A DNA stretch of 64,000 nt from Thauera carbonicopians. Its GTDB lineage: Bacteria; Pseudomonadota; Gammaproteobacteria; Burkholderiales; Rhodocyclaceae. The stretch is taken from the NCBI RefSeq assembly GCF_025699485.1, contig NZ_JANUXN010000002.1, forward strand, positions 310,001-374,000, read 5' to 3'. The notes beneath the pieces are model-generated. The model did no database searches and was not told where the DNA came from. It saw only the letters and a program-made list of their open reading frames with translations. The position numbers and the translations under genes were made by a program. Of the stretch, positions 5,182 through 56,355 are shown one piece after another (position 1 is the first letter of the stretch; the number at the start of each line of letters is the position of its first letter).

Positions 5182-6111
5182 ATGGCATTTGCGCTGGTTT
5201 TTCCCGGGCAGGGTTCGCAATCGGTCGGCATGATGGCCGCCTACGGCGAAGCCGCAGTGATTCGTGAAACCTTCGCCGAAGCGTCCGATGCGCTGGGCGA
5301 GGATCTGTGGGCCATGGTGTGCGACGGCCCGGCCGAGCGCCTGGCGCTGACGGTCAACACCCAGCCGCTGATGCTGACGGCGGGCGTTGCCGCCTGGCGC
5401 GCCTGGCTGGCCGCGGGCGGTCCCAAGCCGGCGCTGGTGGCCGGGCACAGCCTGGGCGAATACTCGGCGCTGGTCGCTGCCGGGGCCATGGCCTTCAAGG
5501 ATACCGTGCCGCTGGTGCGCTTCCGCGCCCAGGCGATGCAGGAAGCGGTGCCCGCCGGCGAAGGCGCGATGGCCGCGGTGATGGGCCTGGAGGCCGACGC
5601 CGTGCGCGAAGCCTGTGCCGAAGCCGCGCAGGGGCAGGTGGTCGAGGCCGCCAACCTGAATGCGCCGGGCCAGATCGTCATCGCCGGTGCGAAGGCCGCG
5701 GTCGAGCGCGCCGGCGAGATCGCCAAGGCCAGGGGTGCGAAGCGTGCCGTGCTGCTGCCGGTATCCGCGCCTTTCCACTGCGCGCTGATGCGCCCTGCGG
5801 CCGAGCGCCTGGCCGAGCGCCTGGCGGACATCGTCATCGCCCGGCCGGAAATCGACGTCATCAACAACGTCGATGTCGCCGTCTACGACGATCCCGAGAA
5901 GATCCGCGACGCCCTGGTGCGCCAGGCCTATTCGCCGGTGCGCTGGATCGAGCTGGTGCAGGCGATGGCGGCGCGCGGCATGAGCCACGTCATCGAATGC
6001 GGGCCGGGCAAGGTGCTGGCCGGCATGACCAAGCGCATTGCCAAGGATGTGGAAGGCGGTTCGGCGCACGACGCGGCGAGCCTCGAACAGTCGATTGCGG
6101 CGGTGAGGTGA
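5182..6111 (+). CDS. fabD: Malonyl-CoA:ACP transacylase FabD
   Basis: Transfers malonyl from CoA to ACP. The nucleophile Ser is in GHSLGEYSAL (about residue 90), with FPGQGSQ near the N-terminus and the catalytic His in SAPFHCALM. 309 aa, as usual. A purine-rich GGAGAGCAGG precedes ATG 5182. Confidence 0.97.
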   Translation: MAFALVFPGQGSQSVGMMAAYGEAAVIRETFAEASDALGEDLWAMVCDGPAERLALTVNTQPLMLTAGVAAWRAWLAAGGPKPALVAGHSLGEYSALVAAGAMAFKDTVPLVRFRAQAMQEAVPAGEGAMAAVMGLEADAVREACAEAAQGQVVEAANLNAPGQIVIAGAKAAVERAGEIAKARGAKRAVLLPVSAPFHCALMRPAAERLAERLADIVIARPEIDVINNVDVAVYDDPEKIRDALVRQAYSPVRWIELVQAMAARGMSHVIECGPGKVLAGMTKRIAKDVEGGSAHDAASLEQSIAAVR

Positions 6112-39990: not shown

Positions 39991-40151
39991 TGGCAGTCCT
40001 GTGTCGAGGCGACGCCACGTCATGGCCTTCCAGCTATTGAAGATGGAACGTGCGCGGTTGTGGGAATGGTTGGCCAAAACGGCAAAAAGTGGAAACGTGC
40101 AGTGTCACTCGTATCCGCATGGTCCAAATCGACCGGGATGCAGCATCACTG

Positions 40152-41327
40152 CTAGTTCCAGAGCAAACGGCCGACCCGTCCGATGATGTCATCGACCTGC
40201 GCGGCGTTGATGATCAAGGGAGGCAGGAGGCGGATCGTATTGCCGCGAGTCACGCTGATGAGTAAACGCTCTTTCGCCAGCGCCAGTCCGACGAGTTCGC
40301 TGCAATGTGCATCTGTCTCAATACCCACCATCAGGCCATGGCCTCGAATCGCAACAACGTTCGGCTGGTGCCGGAGTCTGTCGCGCAAGCCTGAAAGCAG
40401 CCGTTCTCCCATTGCCGCCGCATGCTGGGAAATGTGTTCGCGCTCCATAATGTCGAGCACGGTGCAGCCGATGCGGCAGGCCAGCGGACTACCGCCGAAA
40501 GTCGAGCCGTGGTGGCCGGGGGAGAACAGTTTGGCGGCTTCTCCACGCGCCAGGCATGCGCCGATCGGGAAACCGTTGCCGAGCCCCTTGGCCAGCGTGA
40601 TGACGTCGGGCGCCACGCCGGCATGCTGAAAGCCGAACCATGCCCCCGTGCGGCCCATGCCGGTCTGCACCTCGTCGATCATGAGCAGCCAGCCGTGCTC
40701 ATCGCACAGCTCGCGCAGCCGCTGCAGATATTCGCACGAGGCGACTCGCACGCCGCCTTCACCCTGCACCGGCTCGACGAGCACAGCAACGATGCCGGGC
40801 GTGGCGGCGGCAGCTGTGCGCACGGCGTTGATGTCGTCATATGGCACGCGCAGGAAGCCCGGCATCAGCGGTTCGAAGCCCCGGTGCACGGCAGGGTTGC
40901 CTGTCGCAGCGAGCGTCGCGAAGGTGCGGCCATGAAAGCTGTTCTCCATCACCAGGACTTGCGGCTGCGCGACGCCCAGACGGTGGGCATGCAGGCGGGC
41001 CAGCTTCAGGGCTGCCTCGTTGGCTTCCGCCCCGGAGTTGCAGAAGAAGGCACGCTCCATGCCGGCGAGCGCACATAGGCGTTCCCCCAGGCGTTCCTGC
41101 CAGGCGATAGAGAACATATTGGATGTGTGCAGCAGCAGGCTCGCCTGCTCCGCGATGGCAGTCGCGATCTCCGGATGGGCATGCCCGAGGTTGGTGACGG
41201 CCACACCGGCAATGGCATCAAGGTATTCGATGCCCCGTGTGTCCCACAGCAGCGCGCCCTGGCCGCGAACGAAGGACACTGGCTGGCGGGCGTAGGTTTG
41301 CATCAGATGAGTGGTGGTGTGCTGCAT
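40152..41327 (-). CDS. Acetylornithine aminotransferase-like class III transaminase
   Basis: 391 aa PLP enzyme of the ArgD/AstC/GabT group. FFCNSGAEANEAALKLAR, LLMIDEVQTGMGRTG and ITLAKGLGNGFPIGACL (PLP Lys) are present. Length and the HAHPEIA N-terminal element fit acetylornithine or succinylornithine transaminase. Placed between a small gene of unknown function and the decarboxylase, it more likely serves arginine/ornithine catabolism than biosynthesis. Confidence 0.85.
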   Translation of the reverse strand: MQHTTTHLMQTYARQPVSFVRGQGALLWDTRGIEYLDAIAGVAVTNLGHAHPEIATAIAEQASLLLHTSNMFSIAWQERLGERLCALAGMERAFFCNSGAEANEAALKLARLHAHRLGVAQPQVLVMENSFHGRTFATLAATGNPAVHRGFEPLMPGFLRVPYDDINAVRTAAAATPGIVAVLVEPVQGEGGVRVASCEYLQRLRELCDEHGWLLMIDEVQTGMGRTGAWFGFQHAGVAPDVITLAKGLGNGFPIGACLARGEAAKLFSPGHHGSTFGGSPLACRIGCTVLDIMEREHISQHAAAMGERLLSGLRDRLRHQPNVVAIRGHGLMVGIETDAHCSELVGLALAKERLLISVTRGNTIRLLPPLIINAAQVDDIIGRVGRLLWN

Positions 41328-41341
41328 GTGGCTTCGGCTTT

Positions 41342-41572
41342 TCAGGGAAGGGGGGAGAACAGCAATTCACTGCTCAGCACACGTACGCCATCCGGGCGGC
41401 TTTCCAGGAGACGGCGCTCGCCGCTGGCAACGAGGAATTCGAGCCGGTAGCCATCGGCTTCGCTCAGGCGTGCGGCAATGTCCTTGATCGCGTCGTGCGA
41501 CCAAGGCGTGCCTGATTCAAAGTGGCCCAGCAGCTTGTCGTGGCGGTGGATGACGAGTCGATAAGTGTGCAT
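41342..41572 (-). CDS. Small hypothetical protein, 76 aa
   Basis: Not recognised. It is a charged 76 aa protein (MHTYRLVIHRHDKLLGHFES at the start), with no membrane segment or cysteine motif. It lies 14 bp upstream of the aminotransferase gene on the same strand and fills the space to the divergent regulator, so it is probably real and first in the aminotransferase-decarboxylase operon. It could be a small regulatory or accessory subunit. Confidence 0.55.
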   Translation of the reverse strand: MHTYRLVIHRHDKLLGHFESGTPWSHDAIKDIAARLSEADGYRLEFLVASGERRLLESRPDGVRVLSSELLFSPLP

Positions 41573-41666
41573 GGTTCAGTCCAATGAAGGCCGCTGTTTC
41601 GAGCTGCGGAAAGCCGGTGGGGCAGTTCAGCACGCAGCAGCCGACCCGACATCGAAACAGTTAGTG

Positions 41667-41701
41667 TATAATTGTCCTATGCCAAACTTTATCATGTCCT
41701 A
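41667..41701 (+). promoter_or_regulatory. Promoter and direct-repeat operator of the PtsJ-like gene
   Basis: A perfect TATAAT (41667-41672) is followed by two TGTCCTA direct repeats (41673-41679 and 41695-41701) 22 bp apart, just before the ATG at 41709. MocR-type proteins commonly bind direct repeats of this spacing, so this is a candidate self-regulatory operator that would overlap the transcription start. Confidence 0.5.
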
Positions 41702-41708
41702 GATCATT

Positions 41709-43019
41709 ATGGAAATCGTCGGTAAAACGGCAGCGGATATCTTCGACAGCATTCGTACCTTGACGCAGACAGGCGTACTGGAGCCAGGCCAGGCCTTGCC
41801 TCCGGTGCGTGGTCTTGCCGTCACGCTGGGCGTCAACCGCAATACGGTAGCGATGGCGTACAAGCGCCTGGTCGCAGCCGGCGTCGCGCTCACGCAGGGG
41901 CGCCTGGGCACGGTGATCCGCGAGCGCCCCGGTCCGGGCGAGCAGGAAGGCTCGGTTCCCGATTCGCCCTTGATCGACCTGGGCGGGGGCAACCCCAATC
42001 CACGCTGGCTGCCTGATATGTCTGCCATCCTGGCACGCACGTCCTATCGCCCCCGTCTCTATGGCGAGGCCACGGTCGATCCTGCGCTCGAGGCCGTCGC
42101 CCGCCAATGGATGACGGGCCAGTGCCCCGAGGACTTCGAGATCAACCTGACGCATGGCGCGGTGGATGCGATCGAGCGCCTGCTGATGGCCTGTCTGGTC
42201 GTGGGCGACAAGGTGGCCGTGGAAGACCCGTGCTTTCTCAGCCACATCAACGTGCTGCGCATCAATGGGTTCCAGACCGTGGGGGTGGCCGTCGACAGCG
42301 AAGGCATGGAGGCCCAGGCGCTGGAGCAGGCGCTGGCACAGGGCGCGCAGGCGGTCATCCTGACGCCCAGGGCTCACAACCCGACCGGCGCCAGCCTGAG
42401 CGCCAGGCGCGCGCGCCACCTGCGTGCGGTGTTGGCACGCCATCCGCAGGTGCTGGTCATCGCCGACGACCACTTTGCCCGCCTGGCCTCGACGGACTAC
42501 CACGACGCGATCCCACCCATGGCGCGGTGCTGGGTGCTGATCCGCTCGGTGTCCAAGATGTTCGGCCCCGACCTGCGCCTGGCCTTCGTGGCGAGCGATG
42601 CGCAGACCTCGCAGCGGCTGCGTCTGCGGCTGGCGCCCGGCATGAACTGGGTCAGCCATCTGCTGCAGGATGCAGTGTGGGCCTGCCTGGACTCCCCGGA
42701 GAGCAGCGCACGGATCGACCAGGCCCGCGAGGACTACGCCCGCCGCCGCCGGATCGTGGCCGCGGCCCTGGCTGCGCAGGGCATTGCGGTGGCCGGACCC
42801 GCCGACGGCCTGAACCTGTGGGTGCCGCTGCCGGAAAGCAGTCAGCCGGCGGTGCTGGCGTTGGCACAGCGTGGCTGGGTGGTGCGCGGGGGCGAGCCCT
42901 TCGGCGTGCAGTCGCCGGCGCATGGGCTGCGCATCACGGTGTCCACTCTCGATGAAGAGAATGCGCAGGCATTCGCGCAGGCCGTGAGCCATGCGGTCCA
43001 GCAGCGGGAGCATGGATGA
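41709..43019 (+). CDS. PtsJ-like MocR-family regulator
   Basis: 436 aa GntR winged helix (GQALPPVRGLAVTLGVNRNT recognition region) fused to an aminotransferase-like domain. SVSKMFGPDLRLAFVAS carries the PLP Lys, and ILTPRAHNPTGASLS is a fold type I motif. It resembles E. coli/Salmonella PtsJ, a regulator of pyridoxal kinase, more than the other MocR proteins in this window. It is divergent from the aminotransferase/decarboxylase operon, a likely target. Confidence 0.85.
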   Translation: MEIVGKTAADIFDSIRTLTQTGVLEPGQALPPVRGLAVTLGVNRNTVAMAYKRLVAAGVALTQGRLGTVIRERPGPGEQEGSVPDSPLIDLGGGNPNPRWLPDMSAILARTSYRPRLYGEATVDPALEAVARQWMTGQCPEDFEINLTHGAVDAIERLLMACLVVGDKVAVEDPCFLSHINVLRINGFQTVGVAVDSEGMEAQALEQALAQGAQAVILTPRAHNPTGASLSARRARHLRAVLARHPQVLVIADDHFARLASTDYHDAIPPMARCWVLIRSVSKMFGPDLRLAFVASDAQTSQRLRLRLAPGMNWVSHLLQDAVWACLDSPESSARIDQAREDYARRRRIVAAALAAQGIAVAGPADGLNLWVPLPESSQPAVLALAQRGWVVRGGEPFGVQSPAHGLRITVSTLDEENAQAFAQAVSHAVQQREHG

Positions 43020-43173
43020 TCTGTTTCCTGTGGTCACTCCCGCGTTGGCTGTTGTCGCGGCCATCGGCAGTGGCCGTCTCGACATGACCCATGCCGCCCT
43101 GCACGAAGGCGCAGTGATGGCGACGCCGCAACTGGCCAGCGTGTGCGGCATCCTCGCCAAGCTTGCGCGATAG
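43012..43173 (+). CDS. Small ORF coupled to the PtsJ-like gene
   Basis: 53 codons, overlapping the end of the regulator gene by 8 bp. Hydrophobic N-terminal half (VVTPALAVVAAIGSG). No family recognised. It may be a remnant of a longer gene or a chance frame; the tight overlap is the only argument for translation. Confidence 0.3.
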   Translation: MDDLFPVVTPALAVVAAIGSGRLDMTHAALHEGAVMATPQLASVCGILAKLAR

Positions 43174-43228
43174 AGCCTCACTACCGTCCGCATCCCATGT
43201 AATCACTCGTCAACAGGAAGGAAAAATC

Positions 43229-43957
43229 ATGAATGTCCACTTCGTCGTGCATGAATCGTTCGAGGCACCAGGTGCCTACGAAACCTGGGTCAAGGACCGT
43301 GGCTACAAGGCGAGCTACTCCCGTGTCTACAACCATGAACCGCTGCCGCCATCGGCCGACGGCATCGACCTGCTGGTAGTGATGGGCGGCCCGCAGTCTC
43401 CTTCCACCACGAAGGAGGAATGCCCCCACTTCGATGCGGCGGCCGAGCGCGAGCTGATCGCCAAGTGCGTGAAGGCCGGCAAGGCGGTCGTAGGCATCTG
43501 CCTCGGCTCGCAGTTGATCGGCGAGGCCCTGGGCGCCCGCTACGAGCACAGCCCGGAAAAGGAGATCGGCAAGTTCCCGATCGCGCTGACGGCCGAAGGC
43601 AAGGCCAACGACAAGTTCGCTCACTTCGGCGACACGCCGGAAGTCGGCCACTGGCACAACGACATGCCCGGACTGACCGCAAGCGCCAGGATCATCGCGT
43701 CCAGCGAGGGATGCCCGCGCCAGATCGTGGAATACAGCGATCTCGTGTACGGCTTCCAGTGCCACATGGAGTTCACGCCCGAGGTGATCGAACTGCTGAT
43801 TGCGGCCTCGGAACCGGAGCTCAGGGCGCTCACTGCACATCGGTTCGTACAGCAACCCAGGGCTTTGCGCGCCAATGACTACGAGGATATGAATCGGAAG
43901 TTATTTGGTTTTCTGGACAAACTCATGATCGCATACGCTGGGAAACGCATGTCCTGA
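43229..43957 (+). CDS. Class I glutamine amidotransferase-like protein
   Basis: 242 aa GMP synthase-type GATase1 domain. The nucleophile Cys is in VVGICLGSQLIGEALG, and the catalytic His/Glu pair is in FQCHMEFTPEVIE. VVMGGPQSP is the oxyanion strand region. There is no synthetase domain, so it is a stand-alone hydrolase of a gamma-glutamyl compound or a partner of an unseen synthetase. Relatives act in polyamine or gamma-glutamyl amine breakdown, which would fit the decarboxylase nearby. Confidence 0.85.
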   Translation: MNVHFVVHESFEAPGAYETWVKDRGYKASYSRVYNHEPLPPSADGIDLLVVMGGPQSPSTTKEECPHFDAAAERELIAKCVKAGKAVVGICLGSQLIGEALGARYEHSPEKEIGKFPIALTAEGKANDKFAHFGDTPEVGHWHNDMPGLTASARIIASSEGCPRQIVEYSDLVYGFQCHMEFTPEVIELLIAASEPELRALTAHRFVQQPRALRANDYEDMNRKLFGFLDKLMIAYAGKRMS

Positions 43958-43992: not shown

Positions 43993-45455
43993 TCAATGGA
44001 GTGATCTATGGGCAGCGTGCAAGAGAGACATGGCTTCGGCGATTTCGGCTGACTCCAGGCAGGCATACCCAAAGAGCAGGTAGCGAGGTTCACAGGAGTC
44101 TGTTTCGCTCGTTGCCGCATCGTTGAGCGGGTATAGTCTGACTCCATATCTGAGTGCCGCATCCGCAATGATATTTGCGTCATGGCCATCGTCAGGTAGC
44201 TTGAACGCCAGATGCATTCCGGCATTTTGACCGCTTACGGTGCCGCTGCCGGCCCATGTTCTCTCGAGGCCGCGCAGTAATTCGTCGCGTTGCTCCTGGT
44301 AGCGGCGGCGGAGGCACTGCAAGTGACGGCCAAGCTGCATTCATCGAAGTAACGTGCCATGACGGCCTGTGTAAGCCATGGGCTGCCATTGTTCAGCAGT
44401 GCCTTGCGCTCGATGAAATCTCCCATCAGCGCGGGAGGACAGACCATGTATCCGAGCCTGAGGCCAGGCCCCAAGGTCTTGGAGAAAGTACCCAGATATA
44501 TGACTTGATGTGGATTCATTGCCGCCAATGGTGGTGGCAGGACGGATTCGTAGCAGAAGTCCCCATCATAGTCATCCTCGATGACCATGGCCCCGTTTCG
44601 TGCTGCCCAGGCAAGCAGTTGATGACGCCTTTCCATCGACATCGTGTATCCCAATGGATACTGGTGCGATGGAGTGACGTATGCCAATTGGACGGGGCGC
44701 TCTGGTAACAGATCGGTACGAAGCCCTTGAGCGTCGACAGGTATCGGCAGGGCAGTGGCATTGTGTCGCAGTACCAGATTCCGGAATCCGGCATAGCAAG
44801 GGGATTCCGTCACGGCTTCGCTGTAATGATCCAGGAAATGCGCGGCGATCAGGCTGAGCGATTCCTGACTCCCGGCCGTTATCAGCACATTCTCAGGGGC
44901 GACCTTCAAGCCTTTCGCTGCCGAGAGGTGATCGGAAATCTGCATCCTGAATCCCCACAGGCCTGCTGGTGGGGTGTAGTCTGACATTGCGTCACCGTGG
45001 TGATCTATCAATTGCTTTGACAGATTGCTGAAATGTCGCCGCGGGAACGCGTGAGCGGATGGGCGGCCGATCTTGAAGTCAAACCTGATGGGGTTGGAAG
45101 GCGGTGATATGAACACGCCGCTGGATCGCGCAAGGCTGACAGCATCAGCATAGGTCGGCAGATGATCAATGGCGAATCCAGGCTTGGCTGCGTCGACAAT
45201 AAGCGATCTGCCAAGCGTGACGAAATAACCTCGACTGGGCCTGCTCTCGATGAGATTCGATTCGAGTAGAAGCTCGTAAGCCCCGAGAATTGTATTCTTC
45301 GATACATGGAGTAGCGTCGACATCCTGCTTATCGCGGGAAGCTGATCCCCCTCCTGCAATCGGCCCGAACGGATGAGGCACTCGATTTGTCCTGCAATCT
45401 GTTGTTTGTATGGCTTCTTGTCTTCACGAGACAGTAGGATCGGCAACGAAAACAT
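43993..45455 (-). pseudogene. Frameshifted MocR/GntR regulator, paralogue of 33142-34695
   Basis: The first 370 or so codons from ATG 45455 encode winged helix (MSTLLHVSKNTILGAYELLL) and aminotransferase domain with FSKTLGPGLRLGYMVCPPAL. Near 44345 the frame shifts: the N-terminal part runs out at FDECSLAVTC, while the rest (LGRHLQCLRRRYQEQRDELL through the family C-terminus) continues in another frame to 43993. One missing base near 44340 restores the whole protein. Either a true mutation or a sequencing error. Lower GC than the flanks. It is divergent from the asparaginase gene, its probable target. Confidence 0.85.
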
Positions 45456-45783
45456 GTCCTGTACCTGTAGGAAATCGACTGTACCCCGAACATGATTCAG
45501 CCTGCTCGGGGTTGCTGTGCGTCAGATGGATATCATCTCATCGACATGGCATGTTTTGCGATTTGTCAACCTGCGTACTCCATGACCATCCCATAGCAAA
45601 GAACCGTACCCATTCGGCTTCACGTAGCGTACCCGTTCACCTGCGGCCATGCGTATCTACTGTCTTCATCAATCCGTAATTAGTATGAATACGGGATCGC
45701 ATAACCGATTTCGGGATTGATTTGCTGCTGAAGTTTATGCCGATTCCGCCTGTCTTTGTGTTTTTGATCGGAGTGAACGCAAA
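45456..45783. promoter_or_regulatory. MocR-paralogue / asparaginase divergent control region
   Basis: 328 bp, relatively AT-rich. It contains CTGTACCC (45479-45486) followed by an inverted repeat ACCCCGA...TCGGGGT (45483-45489 and its partner about 24 bp on), and two more GTACCC copies 23 bp apart (45606-45611 and 45629-45634). These are candidate MocR operators. No convincing sigma-70 promoter was picked out. Confidence 0.4.
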
Positions 45784-46866
45784 ATGAACGCAACGAAATA
45801 TTTTGGGCGCTTGTGTGCCATGGCCGTGAGTGCGTGTATTGCGCTGGGTGGAGTCGCCATTGCTGGCCAAGAAGATAAGCCCAACGTCGTGATTATCGGC
45901 ACCGGTGGAACCATTGCCGGTGTTGCATCCAAAACCACTCAAGTGGTTGGCTATGAGGCTGCCAAAGTAGGCGTGGAAGCTCTCATAGCTGCGGTACCCG
46001 GGATCGATGAAATTGCAAACGTCAGTGGCGAGCAGATATTCCAGATTCCCAGTGAAGACATGATGGACTCCCATTGGCTGCAGTTGGCAGGACGAATCAA
46101 TGAACTGCTTGCCGAGAAGGAGGTCGATGGAATCGTTATCACTCATGGCTCGGATACGCTCGAGGAAACAGCTTATTTCCTCAACCTCGTGGTCAAGAGC
46201 GAAAAGCCGGTCGTGTTGACGGCTGGCCTGCGTCCGTCATCTGCGACCAGCGCTGATGGTCCGATGAACATATACAACAGTATTCTTGTGGCGGGCAGCC
46301 CTGAGTCAGTTGGAAAGGGGGTGCTTATTTCCCTGAACGACTATATTGGAAGCGCGCGCACCACAGTCAAGACGAACACCTTCGCACTGGATACCTTCAA
46401 GTCGACAGACCTGGGTTTCCTGGGCTATCTCGCAGGTGGCCAGGTATTTTACTACAATGCGCCTGTGCGCAAACATACCGTGCACTCGGAGTTTGACGTC
46501 AGCGGCCTCCGTGAGCTGCCCAAGGTCGAGATCGTCTATGGCCAAGCTAATGCAAACATGGTCGCCGCAAACGCATTCGTGAAGAATGGTGCCAAGGGAC
46601 TGATTTATGCGGCTGTTGGCAATGGCACCATGTCCCGCACCGTGAAGCAAGGAATGGCTGATCTGCGCAAGCAAGGCCTTCTCGTTGTACGTTCCAGCCA
46701 TGTTGGCACAGGCTCTGTGGCGCGCAATGGCGAGGCAAATGATGATGAGCTGGATTTTGTCGTTGCCGATAACCTTAATCCACAGAAGGCTCGGATCCTG
46801 CTCCAATTGGCATTGACCAAGACGTCCGATACGAAAGAAATTCAGAAAATGTTCTGGGCGTATTAA
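45784..46866 (+). CDS. ansB: Periplasmic L-asparaginase, type II
   Basis: 360 aa. The signal peptide ends near VAIAG (about residue 28). The nucleophile Thr is in IGTGGTIAG (Thr43), and the second catalytic Thr with Asp is in THGSDTLEETAYFL. GLRPSSATSADGP is a further family motif. It hydrolyses L-asparagine (and possibly glutamine) in the periplasm, giving aspartate for the transporter and aspartase encoded downstream. Codon and base composition are lower in GC than the housekeeping genes, suggesting acquisition by transfer. Confidence 0.93.
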   Translation: MNATKYFGRLCAMAVSACIALGGVAIAGQEDKPNVVIIGTGGTIAGVASKTTQVVGYEAAKVGVEALIAAVPGIDEIANVSGEQIFQIPSEDMMDSHWLQLAGRINELLAEKEVDGIVITHGSDTLEETAYFLNLVVKSEKPVVLTAGLRPSSATSADGPMNIYNSILVAGSPESVGKGVLISLNDYIGSARTTVKTNTFALDTFKSTDLGFLGYLAGGQVFYYNAPVRKHTVHSEFDVSGLRELPKVEIVYGQANANMVAANAFVKNGAKGLIYAAVGNGTMSRTVKQGMADLRKQGLLVVRSSHVGTGSVARNGEANDDELDFVVADNLNPQKARILLQLALTKTSDTKEIQKMFWAY

Positions 46867-46920
46867 TAACTAAGGGCCAGGGGCATGCGGTACTAGTGCG
46901 AGGATGGGGGTGTTCAGTCT

Positions 46921-46976
46921 TGTCAGTAGGATAACCTATGGTTCCAGAAACTTGGACCATAGGGCCCTTGCTGACA
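46921..46976 (+). other. Nested imperfect hairpin downstream of the asparaginase gene
   Basis: TGTCAG (46921-46926) pairs with CTGACA (46971-46976); inside, CTATGG (46936-46941) pairs with CCATAG (46957-46962) and TCCA with TGGA. No T tract follows. It could be a terminator-like or processing structure, or a relic of a mobile element. Confidence 0.4.
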
Positions 46977-47605
46977 GTAAAAGCAGATGTACCCTTCGTT
47001 CTGGCTCCTGGCCTGTGTTGTTCTCAGCAGATTCTAGTTTATGGAAGAGAAGTAAGTGCTCCCTCACTAGCTACGATGTAGCGCCACAGATACCGAACTT
47101 TTCTGTCGGTGATAGCAGAGCTCTGTGGCAAGGAATAGAGAAAGAAGCCTCAACTGCAGTGGCAACCAGAGCCTGCACTGCACACACTCCAAACTCACAT
47201 CCTGCATCGTTACTCTGAATTGAGTGCGGATTAGTTCTCGAGCCGTAAGCCGTATGCATGGCATGGACTGGAACCGCGCAACTGTAGGTTCAACAGTTAC
47301 ACATCCAAAAACAGTCAATCATGCGCCTGGCTGCACGGTTTTGCTTCGGCCTTTCGCATAGTTTTGGCAAACGCCTCAATATCCTCTTTCCAGCACAGCG
47401 CCATCATTCATAGATACAAATACGCGTGAACCAGTGTGCCTTCAGCGCATGCGAAGAGCGTGTATCGGTATGGCAAGAAGCCCACTACCTCCCCCTTTGT
47501 TCCGATGGAGTTTGTTGAGTTGGGGCAGGGGTTTGGCCTTGGACTACTGGCAATGGCCGGCTAGAGGGCGCGGATCATCCCGCTTCGATGGAAGCATGAA
47601 GAACG
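46977..47605. other. Non-coding, lower-GC stretch
   Basis: No convincing gene was found. Short open frames on both strands lack ribosome sites and recognisable motifs. Composition differs from the flanks, so this may be leftover transferred DNA. Confidence 0.5.
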
Positions 47606-47651
47606 TTCGGATTTCCGGACGGAAAGCGGGCCCGCCATTCGGAATCCCGGA
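47606..47651 (+). promoter_or_regulatory. Tandem candidate DctD-binding sites (UAS)
   Basis: Two similar 14-bp near-palindromes, TTCGGATTTCCGGA (47606-47619) and TTCGGAATCCCGGA (47638-47651). Their starts are 32 bp apart (three helical turns), and they lie about 90-140 bp upstream of the predicted start, the usual place for NtrC-class activators. Confidence 0.6.
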
Positions 47652-47682
47652 TCCACGCAGCCGCGCAGAAAAAATTTTATCC

Positions 47683-47695
47683 AATCAAAACATTA
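47683..47695 (+). promoter_or_regulatory. IHF-binding site
   Basis: AATCAA-AACA-TTA is an exact match to WATCAA-N4-TTR, in an A/T-rich stretch between the activator sites and the -24/-12 promoter, where IHF bends DNA for activator contact. Confidence 0.65.
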
Positions 47696-47716
47696 ATTTA
47701 TCAGCTAAAGCGCTGC

Positions 47717-47732
47717 TGGCACGCGGCATGCA
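47717..47732 (+). promoter_or_regulatory. Sigma-54 (-24/-12) promoter of aspA-dctA
   Basis: TGGCACGCGGCATGCA matches TGGCACG-N4-TTGCW at all but one fixed base, with the invariant GG (47718-47719) and GC (47730-47731) exactly 10 bp apart. Predicted start near 47743, 45 bp before the aspA ATG. Confidence 0.8.
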
Positions 47733-47787
47733 ATGCACTGGGAGCCCGTTTCGAGTCGAGACGAGCCCACTTCGAAGGAGACCGACC

Positions 47788-49209
47788 ATGAATACAACGA
47801 ACACGCGCATCGAACACGACCTGCTGGGCGACCGGGAAGTGCCGGCATCGGCCTATTACGGTGTGCACACGCTGCGCGCCTGCGAGAACTTCCCGATCAG
47901 CGGCATCACCATCGCAGTCTACCCCGACCTGATCCGTGCGCTGGCGCAGATCAAGAAGGCCGCAGCCGAGGCCAATCGCCGGCTGGGCCTGCTCGATGGG
48001 GGCCGCTGCGAAGTCATCGCCGCGGCCTGCGACGAGATCGTCGCCGGGCAATGGCACGAGCAGTTCGTCGTCGATGTGATCCAGGGCGGCGCCGGGACCT
48101 CGACCAACATGAACGCCAACGAGGTCATCGCCAACCGCGCGCTGGAACTGCTCGGCCATCAGCGCGGCGAATACGCCTACCTGCACCCGAACGAGCATGT
48201 GAACATGGGGCAGTCGACCAACGACGTCTACCCCACTGCGCTCAAGCTCGCGACCCACGTCGGCATCCTCCGCCTCGTCGATGCGATGGCCTACCTGCGC
48301 GCGGCTTTCGAACGCAAGGCCGAGGAATTCGCCGACGTGCTCAAGATGGGGCGCACCCAGCTGCAGGACGCGGTGCCGATGACGCTGGGGCAGGAGTTTT
48401 CCACCTATGCGGTGATGCTGGGCGAGGACGAGGAGCGCTTGCGCGATGCCGCCTCGCTGATCCGCGAGATCAACCTCGGCGCCACCGCGATCGGCACCGG
48501 CATCAATGCCCACCCCGACTACGCGCCGCTGGTCTGCGACCTGCTGGCCGAGATCAGCGGGATCGAAGTGGTCACCGCGCCTAACCTGATCGAAGCGACG
48601 CAGGACTGCGGCGCTTTCGTCCAGTTGTCGGGCGTGCTCAAGCGCGTCGCGGTCAAGCTGTCCAAGGTCTGCAACGACCTGCGCCTGCTGTCCTCCGGGC
48701 CGCGCGCCGGCCTGGGCGAGATCAACCTGCCGGCACGCCAGGCGGGCTCGTCGATCATGCCGGGCAAGGTGAATCCGGTGATTCCCGAGGTCATCAACCA
48801 GATCGCCTTCGAGATCATCGGCAACGACCTGACCGTCAGCTTCGCTGCCGAAGCCGGGCAGCTGCAGCTGAACGCCTTCGAGCCGATCATCGCCCACAGC
48901 CTGTTCAAGAGCGTGCTGCACCTGTCCAACGGCTGCCGCGTGCTCGCCGACTACTGCGTCGACGGCATCACCGCCAACCGCGAGATGCTGCGCGCCTCGG
49001 TCGAGAACTCCATCGGCATCGTCACCGCGCTGAACCCGTTCATCGGCTATGCCCATGCCACCGAAGTGGCGGCCGAGGCCTTCCGCAGCGGCCGGGGCGT
49101 GGCCGAAATCGTCATCGAGCGCGGCCTGATGAGCGCCGAGGCGCTGGCCGCAGTGCTGCGCCCCGAAGTGCTGACCCGGCCGCAGCCGATCCCCGCCGCC
49201 AGGGTCTGA
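47788..49209 (+). CDS. aspA: Aspartate ammonia-lyase (aspartase)
   Basis: Deaminates L-aspartate to fumarate and ammonia. 473 aa of the fumarase/aspartase superfamily: GAGTSTNMNANEVIANRA, the loop signature GSSIMPGKVNPVIPEVINQ and TTNTRIEHDLLGDREVPASA at the N-terminus favour aspartase over fumarase. ATG 47788 follows GAAGGAG. It is the first gene behind a sigma-54 promoter and is followed by a DctA-type transporter. Confidence 0.93.
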   Translation: MNTTNTRIEHDLLGDREVPASAYYGVHTLRACENFPISGITIAVYPDLIRALAQIKKAAAEANRRLGLLDGGRCEVIAAACDEIVAGQWHEQFVVDVIQGGAGTSTNMNANEVIANRALELLGHQRGEYAYLHPNEHVNMGQSTNDVYPTALKLATHVGILRLVDAMAYLRAAFERKAEEFADVLKMGRTQLQDAVPMTLGQEFSTYAVMLGEDEERLRDAASLIREINLGATAIGTGINAHPDYAPLVCDLLAEISGIEVVTAPNLIEATQDCGAFVQLSGVLKRVAVKLSKVCNDLRLLSSGPRAGLGEINLPARQAGSSIMPGKVNPVIPEVINQIAFEIIGNDLTVSFAAEAGQLQLNAFEPIIAHSLFKSVLHLSNGCRVLADYCVDGITANREMLRASVENSIGIVTALNPFIGYAHATEVAAEAFRSGRGVAEIVIERGLMSAEALAAVLRPEVLTRPQPIPAARV

Positions 49210-49247
49210 GCCCGTCCGACGACACCACAACTCGAAAGGAAAGCGAC

Positions 49248-50549
49248 ATGAAGATGAATCGCTTGACGACCTGGATCGTCATCTCAATGGTATTGGGCGT
49301 CGCCGTCGGCTACGCCTGCAACACGATGGCGGGCAGCGCCGAAGCGGCGAAGGTCATCGCCGGATACTTCGCCGTGCTGACCGACATCTTCCTGCGCATG
49401 ATCAAGATGATCATCGCGCCGCTGGTGTTCGCGACCCTGGTGGCCGGCTTGGCCAACATGGGCGACTCCAAGACCGTCGGCCGCATCGGCAGCCGCGCGG
49501 TGCTCTGGTTCGTCGGCGCATCGCTGGTGTCGCTGCTGGTCGGGCTGAGCATGGCCAACCTGCTGCAGCCGGGCTCGACCCTGGCCGTGACCCTGCCCGA
49601 GGCCGGCGCCGCCACCGATCTGAAGACCGGCGCGCTCAACCTCGCCAACTTCATCACCCAGGTGTTTCCGAAGAGCATCGTCGAGTCGATGGCGAACAAT
49701 TCCATCCTGCAGATCCTCGTCTTCGCGGTGTTCTTCGGCCTGGCCCTCGGCAATCTGCACAACCAGACGGCCCGCTCGCTGGTAGGCACCATGGACGACA
49801 TCGTCCACGTCATGCTCAAGGTGACGGACTACGTGATGCGGGTGGCGCCGGTCGGCGTATTCGCCGCCGTCGCCGGGGCGATCACGACCCAGGGCCTGGG
49901 CATGCTGGCGGTATTCGGCAAGTTCATGCTGTGCTTCTATGTGGCGCTGGCGGTGCTGTGGGCAGTGCTGATCCTCGCCGGCTACCTCGTCCTCGGGCGC
50001 GAGGTGTTCCGCCTGCTCAAGCTGGTGCGCAATCCGATGCTGCTCGGCTTCTCGACCGCGAGCAGCGAGTCGGCCTATCCCAAGCTGATGGAGCAGCTCG
50101 AGAAGTTCGGCGTCAAGAACCGCGTGACCGGCTTCGTGCTGCCGCTGGGCTACTCCTTCAACCTCGACGGTTCGATGATCTACACTTCGTTCGCGGCGCT
50201 GTTCATCGCCCAGGCGTACGGCATCGAGATGTCGCTGGCGAGCCAGGTCACCATGCTGCTGGTCCTGATGGTGTCGAGCAAGGGCATCGCCGGCGTGCCG
50301 CGTTCGGCGCTGGTCGTCGTTGCCGCCGTGCTGCCGATGTTCGGCCTGCCCGAAGCCGGCGTGCTGCTGATCCTCGGCATCGACCATTTCCTCGACATGG
50401 GGCGCACGGTGACCAACGTGCTCGGCAACGCGATCGCCACCGCCGTGATCGCGAAGTGGGAAGGCGCGATCGAGCCGGTCGCGCCCGAACTGGCCGAAGC
50501 CGAGGACGCGCTGCCCGTCCCCGAGGAGATGGCCCCGCAGGCGGCCTGA
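49248..50549 (+). CDS. DAACS-family dicarboxylate/aspartate symporter (DctA/GltP type)
   Basis: 433 aa with about eight membrane helices and two hairpin loops. Family motifs: MIIAPLVFATLVAGLANMGD, GFSTASSESAYPKLME (HP1 serine-rich tip) and LPLGYSFNLDGSMIYTS (helix 7). It imports C4-dicarboxylates or aspartate with cations. Whether it is DctA or an aspartate carrier cannot be settled. It is 38 bp after aspA and likely co-transcribed from the sigma-54 promoter. Confidence 0.9.
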   Translation: MKMNRLTTWIVISMVLGVAVGYACNTMAGSAEAAKVIAGYFAVLTDIFLRMIKMIIAPLVFATLVAGLANMGDSKTVGRIGSRAVLWFVGASLVSLLVGLSMANLLQPGSTLAVTLPEAGAATDLKTGALNLANFITQVFPKSIVESMANNSILQILVFAVFFGLALGNLHNQTARSLVGTMDDIVHVMLKVTDYVMRVAPVGVFAAVAGAITTQGLGMLAVFGKFMLCFYVALAVLWAVLILAGYLVLGREVFRLLKLVRNPMLLGFSTASSESAYPKLMEQLEKFGVKNRVTGFVLPLGYSFNLDGSMIYTSFAALFIAQAYGIEMSLASQVTMLLVLMVSSKGIAGVPRSALVVVAAVLPMFGLPEAGVLLILGIDHFLDMGRTVTNVLGNAIATAVIAKWEGAIEPVAPELAEAEDALPVPEEMAPQAA

Positions 50550-50576
50550 GGCCGTACCGCGTCATTCATGCATGCA

Positions 50577-50615
50577 GGTGCCGGGGCCCGGTGTGGCACG
50601 CCGGGCCCCGGCACC
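50577..50615 (+). other. Perfect 15-bp GC-rich hairpin between the symporter and dctB genes
   Basis: GGTGCCGGGGCCCGG (50577-50591) pairs without mismatch with CCGGGCCCCGGCACC (50601-50615) around a 9-base loop. No T tract follows. Likely an mRNA-stability or Rho-type termination structure separating the metabolic genes from the regulators. Confidence 0.65.
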
Positions 50616-50662
50616 GAGCGCATGGTACTGTGATCACCGATTGGCACGTCCCCGCACCCATC

Positions 50663-52525
50663 ATGTTTCGTTCCCGCTCCCTGGTGTTGCTGCTGTGTTG
50701 CGCCGCCGTGGTCGGCCTGAGCGGTTTCGCCGCCTACCGGATTGCGCAGAAGCAGGGCATCGAGGACCTGCAGGCGACGGGGCTGCACCGGCTCGATCTG
50801 TATGCCGCCAGCCTCGAGCGCGAGATCGGCAAATACGCCTTCCTGCCGGGCACGCTGGATCTCGAGCAGGACGTGATCGATCTGCTGTCCGGGGCAGCGG
50901 ACGGGCAGGTGGCCGAGCGCGTCAACATCCACCTGGAAAAACTCAACGAGCGCGCCGGTACGATGTCGATCTACGTGATCGATGCGGGCGGCCGCGTCGC
51001 GGCGACCAGCAACTGGCGCCGGACGGACAGTTTTCTCGGCGAGGATCTTTCTTTCCGGCCCTATTTCCGCGATGCCATCGCCAATGGTTCCGGCCGCTTC
51101 TTCGGCATCGGCACGACACAGGGCGACCCCGGCTACTACCTGGCGGCCAGGCTTGCGGGCGGCGGCGGAGAACAGGACATCCGGGGCGTTGCGGTCGTTA
51201 AGGTCAGCCTCGAGCAGCTGGAGAAATCCTGGTCGACCGTGGAAGCGCCGGTACTGGTCGCCGACGAGAACGGGGTGGTCATCCTGTCCGCCGTTGCGGG
51301 CTGGAAGTTCACGCTGCTGCGCCCTCTCGACGAGCGTACGCGCGCAGCCTTCGATTACACCCGGCAATACAACCGGCGCGCCTTGCAGCCGCTGGGCATG
51401 CGCGAGATCGAAGGGGACGGGCACGGCGCACAACTGGTCAGGATCGCCGGCGAAGCTGCCGAAACGGTCTCCGTCTATCCGGTCAGCGGCCGCTTCCTCG
51501 CCCAGTCGCGCGCCCTGCCCGACATGCAATGGACGCTGACGGTGCTGTCGCAGCTCGAACAGGTCGACAGCCTGGCGCAGAGCCGTGCGGCGCTGGCGGC
51601 GATCGCCGCAGCCTGCCTGCTGCTGCTGGCCGCCGTCGTCGCCGAGCGGCGGCGCCATCTGCGCCACCGGCTGGCCGCGCGGGAAACCCTGCAGAAGGCC
51701 TACGACGAACTGGAGCACAAGGTCGAGGCCCGCACCGCCGACCTGTCCGCCGCAAACCAGAAGCTGCAGGACGAGATCGTCGAGCGCATCCGGGCAGAGC
51801 GCACGCTGCGGGCCGCGCAGGAAGAACTGATCCAGGCCGGCAAGCTGGCAGTGATCGGGCAATTGTCCACTGGCATCGCCCACGAACTGAATCAGCCGCT
51901 CGCCGCGCTGCGCACCTTGTCGGCCAATGCGGGGCGGTTTCTCGAGCGCGGCGATGCGGAGACCGCGCGCTTGAACCTGGTACGCATCGCCGAGTTGGCT
52001 GAACGCATGGGACGCATCACCGGCCAGTTGCACAGCTTCGCGCGCAAATCGAGTGGCCGGTCCTCGCCGGTCAGGCTCGGGCAGGCGCTCGACAACGTCC
52101 TGGCGCTGCTCGAAGCGCGGCTGCGGCGCAGTGCCGCATCGGTCGAGCGCAAGGGACCGCCCAGAGAGCCGGTCGTGATGTGCGATCCCAACCGGCTCGA
52201 GCAGGTGCTGGTCAATCTGGTGGGCAATGCGCTCGATGCGATGGCCGGACAGCCGCAGCCGCGCATCGAACTGAGCTGGGACTGCGCGGACGGTGTCGTC
52301 CACCTGCAGATCCGCGACCATGGCCCTGGCCTCAGCGACGAGGCGCGCTCGCATCTGTTCGAGCCGTTCTTCACCACGAAGCCGGAGGGCGACGGCCTGG
52401 GCCTGGGCCTGACGATTTCCGCCGGCATCGTGCGCGACTTTGGCGGCAGCCTGCAGGGCACGAACCATCCGGACGGCGGCGCCGTCTTTACCCTCGAACT
52501 TCCGCTTGCAGACCATCATGGCTGA
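50663..52525 (+). CDS. dctB: C4-dicarboxylate sensor histidine kinase DctB
   Basis: 620 aa. The N-terminal membrane helix (about 5-24), periplasmic tandem PAS/dCache sensor (about 25-290, with FRPYFRDAIANGSGRFFGIG), second helix (about 305-325), coiled coil (about 340-395) and kinase core follow in order. The H box is GIAHELNQPLAALRT, the N box is NLVGNALDAM, and the G boxes are DHGPGL and GLGLGLT. It senses succinate, fumarate or aspartate in the periplasm and phosphorylates DctD. It overlaps dctD by 8 bp. Confidence 0.94.
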   Translation: MFRSRSLVLLLCCAAVVGLSGFAAYRIAQKQGIEDLQATGLHRLDLYAASLEREIGKYAFLPGTLDLEQDVIDLLSGAADGQVAERVNIHLEKLNERAGTMSIYVIDAGGRVAATSNWRRTDSFLGEDLSFRPYFRDAIANGSGRFFGIGTTQGDPGYYLAARLAGGGGEQDIRGVAVVKVSLEQLEKSWSTVEAPVLVADENGVVILSAVAGWKFTLLRPLDERTRAAFDYTRQYNRRALQPLGMREIEGDGHGAQLVRIAGEAAETVSVYPVSGRFLAQSRALPDMQWTLTVLSQLEQVDSLAQSRAALAAIAAACLLLLAAVVAERRRHLRHRLAARETLQKAYDELEHKVEARTADLSAANQKLQDEIVERIRAERTLRAAQEELIQAGKLAVIGQLSTGIAHELNQPLAALRTLSANAGRFLERGDAETARLNLVRIAELAERMGRITGQLHSFARKSSGRSSPVRLGQALDNVLALLEARLRRSAASVERKGPPREPVVMCDPNRLEQVLVNLVGNALDAMAGQPQPRIELSWDCADGVVHLQIRDHGPGLSDEARSHLFEPFFTTKPEGDGLGLGLTISAGIVRDFGGSLQGTNHPDGGAVFTLELPLADHHG

Positions 52526-53846
52526 AGACCTCAAGATCCTCATCATCGAAGACGATCCCGACGTGGCGCTCGGCTGCCGGCAGGCGCTGCAGCTCGAAGG
52601 CCTCGTCGCGGAATGCGCGGGCAGCGCCGAGCAGGGGCTGCGGCGCCTGGCAGCGGACTTCGCCGGCATCGTCGTCAGCGACATCCGCCTGCCCGGCAAG
52701 GACGGCATGAGCCTGCTGCGGGAGCTCCAGGCCATCGATCCGGAACTGCCGGTCGTGCTGATCACCGGCCACGGCGACATCTCGATGGCAGTGCAGGCGA
52801 TGAAGGACGGCGCCTACGATTTCCTGCAGAAGCCCTTCGCCCCCGAGCATCTGGTCGACACCGTCCGCCGCGCGCTGGAGAAGCGCCGCCTGGTGCTGGA
52901 GGTGCGCTTTCTGCGTCGCCGGCTGGCGCAGCGCGACCTGCTGGAAGCGCGCCTGATCGGCAACTCTCCGGGCATGGTCGGTGTGCGCGCGCTGATCGAC
53001 AATCTCGCCGGCAGCGCCGCGGACGTGTTGATCCACGGCGAAACCGGAACCGGCAAGGAACTGGTAGCGCGCTGCCTGCACGAGGCTGGCCCGCGCCGCG
53101 CCGGCAACTTCGTCGCAATCAACTGCGGCGGCCTCCCCGAGACCCTGTTCGACAGCGAGATCTTCGGCCACGAGGCCGGGGCCTACACCGGCGCAGGCAA
53201 GCGCCGCATCGGCAAGATCGAGCATGCCAGCGGCGGCACGCTGTTCCTCGACGAGATCGAGACCATGCCGCTGCCGATGCAGATCAAGCTGCTGCGCGTG
53301 CTGCAGGAGCGTACGCTGGAGCGCCTCGGCTCGAACACGGTGATTCCGGTCGATTGCCGCATCGTCGCCGCGACCAAGGAAAACCTGCTGGCCCTGGCCG
53401 AGCAAGGGCGTTTCCGCGCCGACCTGTACTACCGCCTGTCCGTCGCCACCGTGGCCCTGCCGCCGCTGCGCGAGCGGCGAGAGGACATCCCGCTGCTGTT
53501 CGAGCATTTCCTGCTGCAAGCTGCGGCACGGCACGATCGGCCCGTGCCGCAGCTGCCGCCGGGGCGCATCCAGCAACTGGTCGGCCATCACTGGCCGGGC
53601 AACGTCCGCGAGTTGAGGAACGTCGCCGACCGCTGCGTGCTCGGCATCGAGGCGGGGTCGCCCCCTTTCGGCCAGCCTCAGGGCGAGAGGCCGAGCCCGC
53701 TGGGTGAAACCGTGGAAGCCTTCGAACGTGCCCTGATCGCCGATGCGCTGCGCCGGCATGGCAGCCTGGCGCGTACCGCCGAAGCGCTGGCGATTGCCAA
53801 GACCACGCTGCACGACAAGATACGCAAATATGGCCTGAGCGATTGA
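52518..53846 (+). CDS. dctD: Sigma-54-dependent response regulator DctD
   Basis: 442 aa: receiver domain (Asp in [12 protein letters not shown], Lys in LQKPFAPEH), AAA+ domain with Walker A GETGTGKE, the sigma-54 contact loop as GAYTGA (Tyr variant of GAFTGA), Walker [11 protein letters not shown] and a Fis-type C-terminal helix-turn-helix ([20 protein letters not shown]). It should activate the -24/-12 promoter upstream of aspA. Confidence 0.94.
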
Positions 53847-54000
53847 GGCAAAACGACCCCTCCATGGATGTTCTGCTGTCCTGCAAATCGGTCTGCCTCT
53901 TCAGTCCCCCACTAGCTTACGAGGAAATATCGTGCCCGTGTGACTTGCTCCCCATAAATAGTACGTAAACGATGTAGAGTCCGTTCGCAAAGGAACGGCA

Positions 54001-54264
54001 ATGAAGAAACGATTCACGGAAGAACAGATCATCGGCGTGCTCAAAGAAGCCGAGGCAGGTGCCAAGCCTGCGGAGCTGTGCCGCAAGCACGGGATATCGG
54101 AAGCGACGTACTACAACTGGAAGGCGAAGTACGGTGGGATGATGGTGTCCGAGGTCCAGCGCCTGAAGGCGCTGGAGCAGGAGAACAATCGGCTCAAGAA
54201 GCTGCTGGCCGAGTCAGTGCTGGATAACGCGGCGCTGAAGGATTTGCTTGGGCGAAAGTGGTAA
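54001..54264 (+). CDS. IS3-family transposase OrfA
   Basis: 87 aa helix-turn-helix protein with the leucine-zipper tail typical of OrfA (RFTEEQIIGVLKEAEAGAKP, LCRKHGISEATYYNWKAKYG). Intact. OrfB would normally be joined to it by frameshifting at the 54258-54264 overlap. Confidence 0.92.
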   Translation: MKKRFTEEQIIGVLKEAEAGAKPAELCRKHGISEATYYNWKAKYGGMMVSEVQRLKALEQENNRLKKLLAESVLDNAALKDLLGRKW

Positions 54265-55104
54265 GCCCGCAGGCTCGGCGTGAAGCGGTCAGGATTCTGA
54301 TGGATGAACGCAAGCTGGGTGTGACCAGAGCCTGTGGGCTAGTGGGGATCTCGCGGTCGTTGTTTGCCTACGAGAGTAAGCGCGGCAGTGATCGTGCATT
54401 GACCGAACGGATGAAGGCGCTGGCGGCCGCCAAGCGGCGCTATGGCTACGCGTATCCATGTGCTGCTACGCCGAGAAGGCTGGCAAGCGAACCATAAGCG
54501 GGTTTGGCGGCTGTATAGTCAGGCGGGGCTGAGCATACGCAAACGTAAGCGAAAGCGCATTGCCTCGGTCGAGCGTGTGGTTCGCCCTCAACCGAGCGGG
54601 CCGAATCAGAGTTGATCGATGGATTTCGTTGCTGACGGTCTGGCCCATGGCCGCCGGTTCCGTTGTTTGAACGTGGTCGACGACTACACGCGGGAGTGCT
54701 TGGCCATCGAGGTCGATACGTCGCTGCCCGGGCTACGGGTGACACATGTCTTGGACAGACTGGCCATGATGCGTGGTCTGCCCCGATCCATCACCGTGGA
54801 CAATGGGCCGGAGTTCGCTGGCCGAGCACTGGATGCCTGGGCTTATCAGGCAGGCGTGAAACTGTCATTCATACGACCAGGCAAACCAGTGGAGAATGCT
54901 TACATCGAAAGTTTCAACGGCAAGTTCCGCGACGAGTGTCTCAATGAGCACTGGTTTCTGTCGTTACGGCAGGCCAGATCGTTGATCGAAGCGTGGCGCA
55001 TTGAGTACAACACCGAGCGGCCTCATAGTTCTCTGGGCTACTTGGCGCCCGAGCAGTTCGCCAACGGATATCGGCAAGAAGAGTTTTTTAACACCGGACT
55101 CTAA
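54258..55104 (+). pseudogene. IS3-family transposase OrfB, broken
   Basis: DDE integrase with two lesions. After AKRRYGY (about 54450) two bases are missing and the frame shifts. Further on, the Trp codon of the conserved NQSWSMDF motif is TGA (54613-54615). The remainder ([43 protein letters not shown]) is intact to the normal end. The element cannot move by itself. Confidence 0.9.
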
Positions 55105-55419: not shown

Positions 55420-56355
55420 TCAGACCGCTAATGCAAATGCCTCAGCGGGCGTTCTCATGTTCAGCGCCTGATGTGGGCGCCTATGGTTGTAGAACTGGAT
55501 CCAGTCCCCGATCAGGCGGCTGGCATGCTGCAGTGATTCGAAGCGGTGGTGATGCACACATTGCTCCTTGAGCATGCGGACCACTCGCTCCACCAGGCCA
55601 TTCTGCTCAGGGCTGTGTGGCGTGATGAACTCCTGGCGCAACCCATAGCTTCTGGCCAGCGCCGTGAAACTGCGGCTGGTGAAGACAAGGCCGTTGTCCG
55701 AGCGCAGCAGGAACGGGGCTGGCACGCGCCCGAGCGTACTGAACCGGGCGATCAGTGCGTGCTCCAGCGCTGACTCGGCCGTCTTCGAGTTTCCTCTGCG
55801 CGACAGGTGCCAGCCCAGCAGCTCACGGCTGTGGCAGTCGATCACCAGCGCCATCGTGGTCCAGCCATCACGGCCGGCCCAGATCCGGCGCATGTCGGTG
55901 GCCCAGCGCTCGTTGGGCGCCTTGGCCACCGAGAGCAACGCCTGGATCCTGGGCCTGAACCCCACAGGCCGTTTGCGCACCTGCCAACCTTTGATCTGGA
56001 AGATGCGCTGCACCGTATTCTTATTGAACCCCAGCAGGTGCGCCACCGTGCGATAACCAAACGACGGGTTCTCCTCGATCATGGCCTTGATCGGTGTCAC
56101 AAAGCGATCCTGAAGCGTCGGCTCAGCCTTCACCGGTCGGTAGTACACGCTGCGCCGGGGTACCTCGAACCACCGGCACAGCTTGCTGATCGAGACGATG
56201 AGGCCCTCGGCCTGTAGTCCCTGGCGGATCGTCTCGATCACTTCTCGTCCTCGCCTAGCAGGGACTGCATTTTTTTCGGGCGCGCAGCTCCGGCATCGCC
56301 TCGCCATAAGCCTCCTGCAGGTCCTTGAGTTGGTGTTCGTACTGGTCGCGCACAT
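55420..56355 (-). CDS. IS3-family transposase OrfB
   Basis: About 290 residues of DDE integrase, intact: NERWATDMRRIWAGRDGWTT, RSDNGLVFTSRSF and PEQNGLVERVVRMLKEQC hold the Asp-Asp-Glu triad. The open frame extends into orfA, and the functional protein is expected to be an OrfAB fusion made at the A7 run (56270-56276 on the plus strand as T7). Confidence 0.88.
   Translation of the reverse strand: MCATSTNTNSRTCRRLMARRCRSCAPEKNAVPARRGREVIETIRQGLQAEGLIVSISKLCRWFEVPRRSVYYRPVKAEPTLQDRFVTPIKAMIEENPSFGYRTVAHLLGFNKNTVQRIFQIKGWQVRKRPVGFRPRIQALLSVAKAPNERWATDMRRIWAGRDGWTTMALVIDCHSRELLGWHLSRRGNSKTAESALEHALIARFSTLGRVPAPFLLRSDNGLVFTSRSFTALARSYGLRQEFITPHSPEQNGLVERVVRMLKEQCVHHHRFESLQHASRLIGDWIQFYNHRRPHQALNMRTPAEAFALAV

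Follow-up and report, generated by a model that had tools for sequence, protein, structure and literature searches.

Which two-component system governs the promoter in front of the aspartase gene aspA in this 64-kb stretch of Thauera carbonicopians DNA, hereafter termed the window? The original prediction described the region 47606-47732 as a complete sigma-54 promoter architecture for aspartase and a symporter, and assigned it to adjacent dctBD genes. We consider it highly probable that this region drives an aspA-symporter-aauS-aauR-like operon, with AauSR-type control by acidic amino acids rather than control by DctBD. AauSR, DctBD and sigma-54 activation with IHF are all known systems, and the present case belongs to the AauSR type but differs in the genes that its operon contains. 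In P. putida, aspartase is inducible by acidic amino acids. A literature search, outside which lay most subscription journals and the P. putida AauR papers, found no link between AauR and aspartase, and aspA may already have been named elsewhere as a target of AauR. A match of AauR with aspartate ammonia-lyase in Arthrobacter aurescens was, judged by its title, a coincidence of locus tags and was discarded.

Promoter elements upstream of aspA and their recurrence

The four genes of the putative operon lie in the same direction on the forward strand, separated by gaps of at most 113 bp, and would be co-transcribed. The leading gene aspA (47788..49209) encodes aspartate ammonia-lyase (NCBIfam TIGR00839, 717.8 bits against a cut-off of 681.2), and is preceded by the ribosome-binding site (RBS) AAGGAG (47775-47780, forward strand, direct reading). 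It is followed by genes for an SDF-family symporter (49248..50549, PF00375), an AauS-like sensor kinase (50663..52525, assigned by domain and identity comparison) and an AauR-like sigma-54 enhancer-binding response regulator with the L1 motif GAYTGA (52518..53846). Operons of this kind are distributed over Thauera, Dechloromonas, Azospirillum and Ensifer, in addition to a symporter-led form in Comamonadaceae. The genome to which the window belongs also encodes both IHF alpha and IHF beta, and its 20 matches to the sigma-54 activator domain include 15 strong ones.

Direct reading of the forward strand confirmed the predicted motifs. Two near-identical 14-bp sites of the type TTCGG-N4-CCGGA start 32 bp apart: box 1 (TTCGGATTTCCGGA, 47606..47619), which holds its position in relatives and precedes the -24 TGG by 111 bp, and box 2 (TTCGGAATCCCGGA, 47638..47651). 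Downstream of them, AATCAAAACATTA (47683..47695) fits the IHF consensus WATCARNNNNTTR exactly, and overlaps a second IHF-like site, AAACATTAATTTA (47688..47700), which agrees at seven of nine positions and was recognized by the genus alignment, its spacings and its score; it is this second site that lies in the register of the relatives' IHF site. The -24/-12 element TGGCACGCGGCATGCA (47717..47732) reads TGGCACG-CGGC-ATGCA, with ten bases between the GG (47718-47719) and the GC (47730-47731). It ends 55 bp before the aspA ATG (47788), not 45 bp as had been stated; the latter distance is that of the transcription start, which we predict near 47743.

Relatives of the regulator were collected from the best 80 of 391 loci, six plasmid regions and further genomes. 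As the loci were chosen by similarity to the window regulator, they are related and the counts are not independent. The scan comprised 68 promoters, namely 86 loci minus 19 unscanned ones plus the window; the unscanned loci were six with a regulator best matching P. aeruginosa AauR, eight without aspA or symporter, and five incomplete ones. To be counted, a box had to fit TYCGG-N4-CCGRA at 9 or all 10 of its positions; a -24/-12 element had to contain GG and TGC and was allowed up to two mismatches, with Y and W tolerated. By these definitions, a box lies 60-140 bp upstream of a -24/-12 element in 64 of the 68 related lead promoters, window included, and the pair is missing only in L079, L108, L111 and L130; 50 mononucleotide shuffles of the 68-promoter set yielded the arrangement in none. 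Among the 64 promoters, 55 have a full-scoring box and 42 have paired boxes 31-33 bp apart. This recurrence supports the earlier proposal that aspA and the symporter are under an IHF-assisted, enhancer-dependent sigma-54 promoter.

Within the genus, a search of 29 genomes gave an aspA-like match in 13, eight of them at 88% identity or more (own genome included). The seven of these eight loci that have full upstream sequence, the eighth being left out for its short upstream sequence, have retained the RBS and the -24/-12 element as well as box 1, and the GG and GC are invariant across the alignment. The expectation that the palindromes should be conserved in close relatives is borne out for box 1, whereas the right half of box 2 is degenerate in several relatives and its left half is better kept. 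The exact IHF match is common only to the window and L198 in this alignment, and its letters are also present in L054.

Counted singly in the window, each motif is near chance and unremarkable: the box pattern TTCGGNNNNCCGRA was found twice against 0.43 expected, the IHF pattern twice against 0.74, and the -24/-12 pattern once against 0.32. Across the own genome, TTCGGNNNNCCGRA gave 32 matches (21 forward and 11 reverse, symmetric sites being counted twice and two matches having no listed locus), without clear enrichment over the 26 of a reversed control. These counts would suit a chance assembly of short matches. However, among the 25 box loci fetched from the genome, only two have a -24/-12 element 40-200 bp downstream, and both are the window site; together with the recurrence in 64 of 68 related promoters and in no shuffle, this means that the elements, combined and in order, are not a product of chance. 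Moreover, order, spacing and phase are conserved across alpha- and betaproteobacteria, a conservation that refutes the chance reading as far as sequence allows and leaves it scarcely credible. A genome-wide AauR-box regulon was also considered, and rejected because the boxes are not clearly enriched and a -24/-12 element follows them only at the window site.

The -12 part of the element differs between lineages. It starts with TTGC in all 13 alphaproteobacterial promoters of the 64, whereas its first T is replaced by G, A or C in 46 of the 47 betaproteobacterial ones. In the own genome, -24/-12-like sites number 19, compared to six for a reversed control, and 17 of the 19 (the window site included) also lack that T. 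The absence of this T looks like a lineage habit. A co-change of the L1 loop GAYTGA with the -12 sequence ATGCA was rejected, because the T is also absent beside GAFTGA regulators, for instance at L071, L072, L103 and L124.

Affiliation of the regulator, sensor and symporter

According to two reports, the AauR box of P. putida, defined by DNase I footprinting, is TTCGG-N4-CCGAA (PMC7962211, PMC7386598). Both window boxes agree with it at nine of ten positions, ending in CCGGA compared to the published CCGAA; full matches of the TTCGG-N4-CCGAA type occur in many relatives. Two positive controls, the region upstream of aatJ in P. aeruginosa and that before the aat genes in P. putida GM4FR, both contain a box and a -24/-12 element. 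The boxes of P. putida GM4FR are two in number and 31 bp apart, close to the 32 bp of the window, and P. aeruginosa has one box and, by eye, a degenerate one 32 bp on. The Pseudomonas AauS-AauR system and its aatJ promoter resemble the window in the families of regulator and sensor, in the TTCGG-N4-CCGRA boxes with a -24/-12 element, and in having genes for acidic amino acids in the same cluster. They differ in their targets, which are the AatJQMP ABC transporter, ggt and asparaginase instead of aspA and an SDF-family symporter, in addition to the CCGGA box ends and the GAYTGA motif of the window.

Sequence comparison placed the regulator at 62-63% identity to P. aeruginosa AauR, compared to 51% to S. 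meliloti DctD, and the sensor at 48% to P. aeruginosa AauS (606 aa), compared to 36% to S. meliloti DctB (531 aa). Regulator trees were obtained by quick searches with SH-aLRT only, with two subsets (65 and 59) of the 139 sequences collected; the long outgroup branches flagged in the earlier tree were left out of the 59-row tree, and the own-genome regulator L011 was dropped on account of a stop in the extracted piece. In the 59-row tree, the aspA/symporter-linked regulators (23 rows), the Pseudomonas-type AauR proteins (10 rows) and the rhizobial DctD proteins (4 rows) each fall on one side of a branch, a split in which the 22 other rows are not counted. A tree constrained to unite the window clade with DctD was 70 log units worse and was rejected (AU p 0.000639), whereas the one uniting it with AauR was 8 units better than the quick-search tree and was not rejected (AU p 0.67).

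In rhizobia, DctB and DctD form a two-component system with sigma-54 activation of an SDF-family carrier gene. The window shares these traits, and a true DctBD circuit, in which sensing of C4-dicarboxylates drives aspA and a DctA-type carrier, must be weighed. The proteins belong to the same superfamily; at an E-value of 1e-30 or lower, the receiver domain matches nothing in the PDB but S. meliloti DctD (153 bits to 1qkk); the symporter scores higher with the NCBIfam model for DctA (354.1 bits) than with that for GltP (326.6 bits), both scores being below cut-off; and the palindrome core of S. meliloti dctA, CGGAAATCCG, resembles the window boxes. Nevertheless, the rhizobial regulators form a separate clade, as indicated by the tree and the AU test, and the sensor is nearer to AauS. 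The TTCGG/CCGAA ends are missing from the palindrome of S. meliloti, TGTGCGGAAATCCGCACA, and the Shinella dctA region likewise has a palindrome of different sequence; in the two regions compared, upstream of dctA in S. meliloti and Shinella, a -24/-12 element was present and an AauR box was not found. The carrier argues in the same direction, with Ser in DctA where the window symporter has Asp (see below), and a separate DctA-like gene in the own genome has, by eye, Gly at this position. We thus regard a true DctBD circuit as improbable. The earlier assignment to an adjacent dctBD pair holds for the two-component sigma-54 class and the superfamily, since P. aeruginosa AauSR is itself termed a DctBD-type system (PMC7962211), and is not supported for DctBD proper, in view of the AauR clade, the sensor, the boxes and the symporter residue. 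The name of the regulator matters, as the DctBD label predicts control by dicarboxylates, whereas acidic amino acids are favoured by the evidence.

The symporter is assigned to the aspartate/glutamate type by its TM8 residues (GIDHFLDMGRTVTN), and its best PDB match is an aspartate transporter. The aspartate amino group is held by D394 in GltPh (PMC7682989, PMC12668577), and the residue at this position is said to separate carriers of amino acids from those of dicarboxylates (PMC12668577). The window symporter has Asp at the position of D394, whereas DctA of both S. meliloti and Shinella has Ser. The collected loci contain 77 symporter matches, 66 of which share at least 60% identity (63 with Asp, three outside the search pattern); the 11 weaker ones (below 60%) comprise eight with Asp, one with Ser and two outside the pattern. 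In P. putida, gltP, encoding a glutamate/aspartate symporter, is described as a putative AauR target, which fits the amino-acid-type symporter found here. Judged by sequence, from the aspartase score above cut-off and the symporter residue, the targets of the window regulator would serve the uptake and use of acidic amino acids.

We propose that AauSR-type control at the window promoter might operate as follows. The sensor would detect extracellular acidic amino acids, as AauS does, and phosphorylate the regulator, which would then bind the two TTCGG-N4-CCGRA boxes, about three helical turns apart. IHF would bend the DNA between boxes and promoter, and the AAA+ ring of the regulator would contact the closed complex of sigma-54 polymerase at the -24/-12 element and open it. 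The resulting products would be an aspartate carrier, an aspartase that converts aspartate to fumarate and ammonia, and more of the regulator pair.

Spacing of the boxes, the IHF site and the promoter

The distance from the far box to the TGG is either 106-111 bp or 118-122 bp, and falls at 112-117 bp in none of 62 promoters; this list omits L085, which has a near box only, and includes for L115 neither the 129-bp match nor the box at 121 bp. Similarly, of the 47 promoters with a good IHF match, all except two have it starting 27-29 or 38-40 bp from the TGG. In the IHF table, which covers the 46 of these 47 rows scoring 8 or 9 of 9 and omits L085, the distance between box and IHF site is 80-82 bp in 43 of 46 promoters, the exceptions being the window (77 bp), L054 (75 bp) and L103 (92 bp). 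The box-to-TGG and IHF-to-TGG distances are correlated over the 46 promoters with an r of 0.92, for which no probability is claimed as the rows are related. Boxes and IHF site thus move as a unit between two positions separated by about one DNA turn, an arrangement in keeping with an IHF-formed loop.

The operon of Azospirillum sp. B510, an alphaproteobacterium, has the same aspA-symporter-sensor-regulator order as the window, two TTCGG-N4-CCGGA boxes 32 bp apart, an exact IHF match and a -24/-12 element. It differs from the window in the distances, with boxes at 121 and 89 bp and the IHF site at 39 bp, and in its -12 sequence TTGCT.

The exact IHF match of the window begins at a distance of 34 bp from the TGG, missing the conserved register by 4-5 bp. 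The weaker site at 47688-47700 (7/9) occupies this register, and in the genus alignment it coincides with the relatives' IHF-like site. It is an evenly balanced proposition that boxes and IHF site form a rigid cassette, placed about 109 or about 120 bp from the -24/-12 element and never between, and that the window and its nearest relative represent a third arrangement, in which the exact IHF match is out of phase by about half a turn. The off-register match might also have been read as a loop that deteriorated once sigma-54 had been lost. This was rejected by means of L198 (genome G221), which shares the off-register match, yet has an rpoN match without a stop. The 64 promoters, with the block of boxes and IHF site one helical turn nearer or further, provide a natural series for the loop geometry of sigma-54 promoters.

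The sigma-54 gene and the surroundings of the operon

A single match to PF04552, the sigma-54 DNA-binding domain, was found in the own genome, and is the only rpoN found there (L164, contig C33 463603-464064). It contains an in-frame stop inside this domain, so that RpoN as assembled would end within it, ahead of a stretch resembling the RpoN box. Among the 41 genomes searched (42 matches), this is the only one with such a stop, which is absent from the other 40. The AauR-type promoter might accordingly be silent in this strain, its sole sigma-54 gene being stopped, with the operon either off or expressed from another start, a reading compatible with the AauSR-type assignment. On the other hand, an error of assembly or sequencing is as likely a source of the stop, and the -24/-12-like sites are still in excess (19 compared to six), as might be expected if rpoN had changed only recently or the stop were an error. 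In addition, no sigma-70-like promoter was found in 46800-54500, and terminator-like sites in the same range number four compared to 4.5 expected; neither count is informative. We consider silence of the promoter a real possibility, though one held at somewhat less than even. The sigma-54 architecture can thus be called complete with respect to its elements, all of which are present, but a working sigma-54 may be absent from the assembly. Should the strain depart from the behaviour predicted by its AauSR-type promoter, the rpoN stop would be a possible reason.

The asparaginase gene upstream of the promoter (45784-46866), for which a part in the circuit had been suggested, was rejected as a member of the regulon, as the window contains no further exact box or -24/-12 match (no mismatches allowed). 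At L054, an aldolase-like frame, identified by eye, takes the place of asparaginase upstream of aspA. The G+C content is 51-57% at 44000-47500, around asparaginase and a MocR-like regulator, compared to 61-70% in the left-hand flank (40000-43500) and 63-69% across the operon, and the segment 44000-47500 may be a foreign insert ending just upstream of the promoter. On the other side, two integrase-like open frames, named by eye, lie 3' of the operon (54619-55104, forward strand, and 55420-56355, reverse strand), because of which the operon likely adjoins insertion sequences.

Between the symporter and sensor genes, L054 carries a TauE/SafE-family gene (5285-6055), and a gap of similar size occurs in other Thauera and Dechloromonas loci. 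The window has only 113 bp here (50550-50662), part of which resembles, by eye, the start of the TauE/SafE gene; therefore, this gene seems to have been deleted from the window. Two regulator-sensor pairs lie tail to tail at L072 and L074, both from Dechloromonas, and at L135/L154, one pair being of the aspA type and the other containing a second AauR-like regulator, which at L074 lies near an ABC transporter ATPase gene. Finally, the P. aeruginosa plasmid pZYPA1927 (L050) carries an aat-ggt-asparaginase-aauSR cluster.
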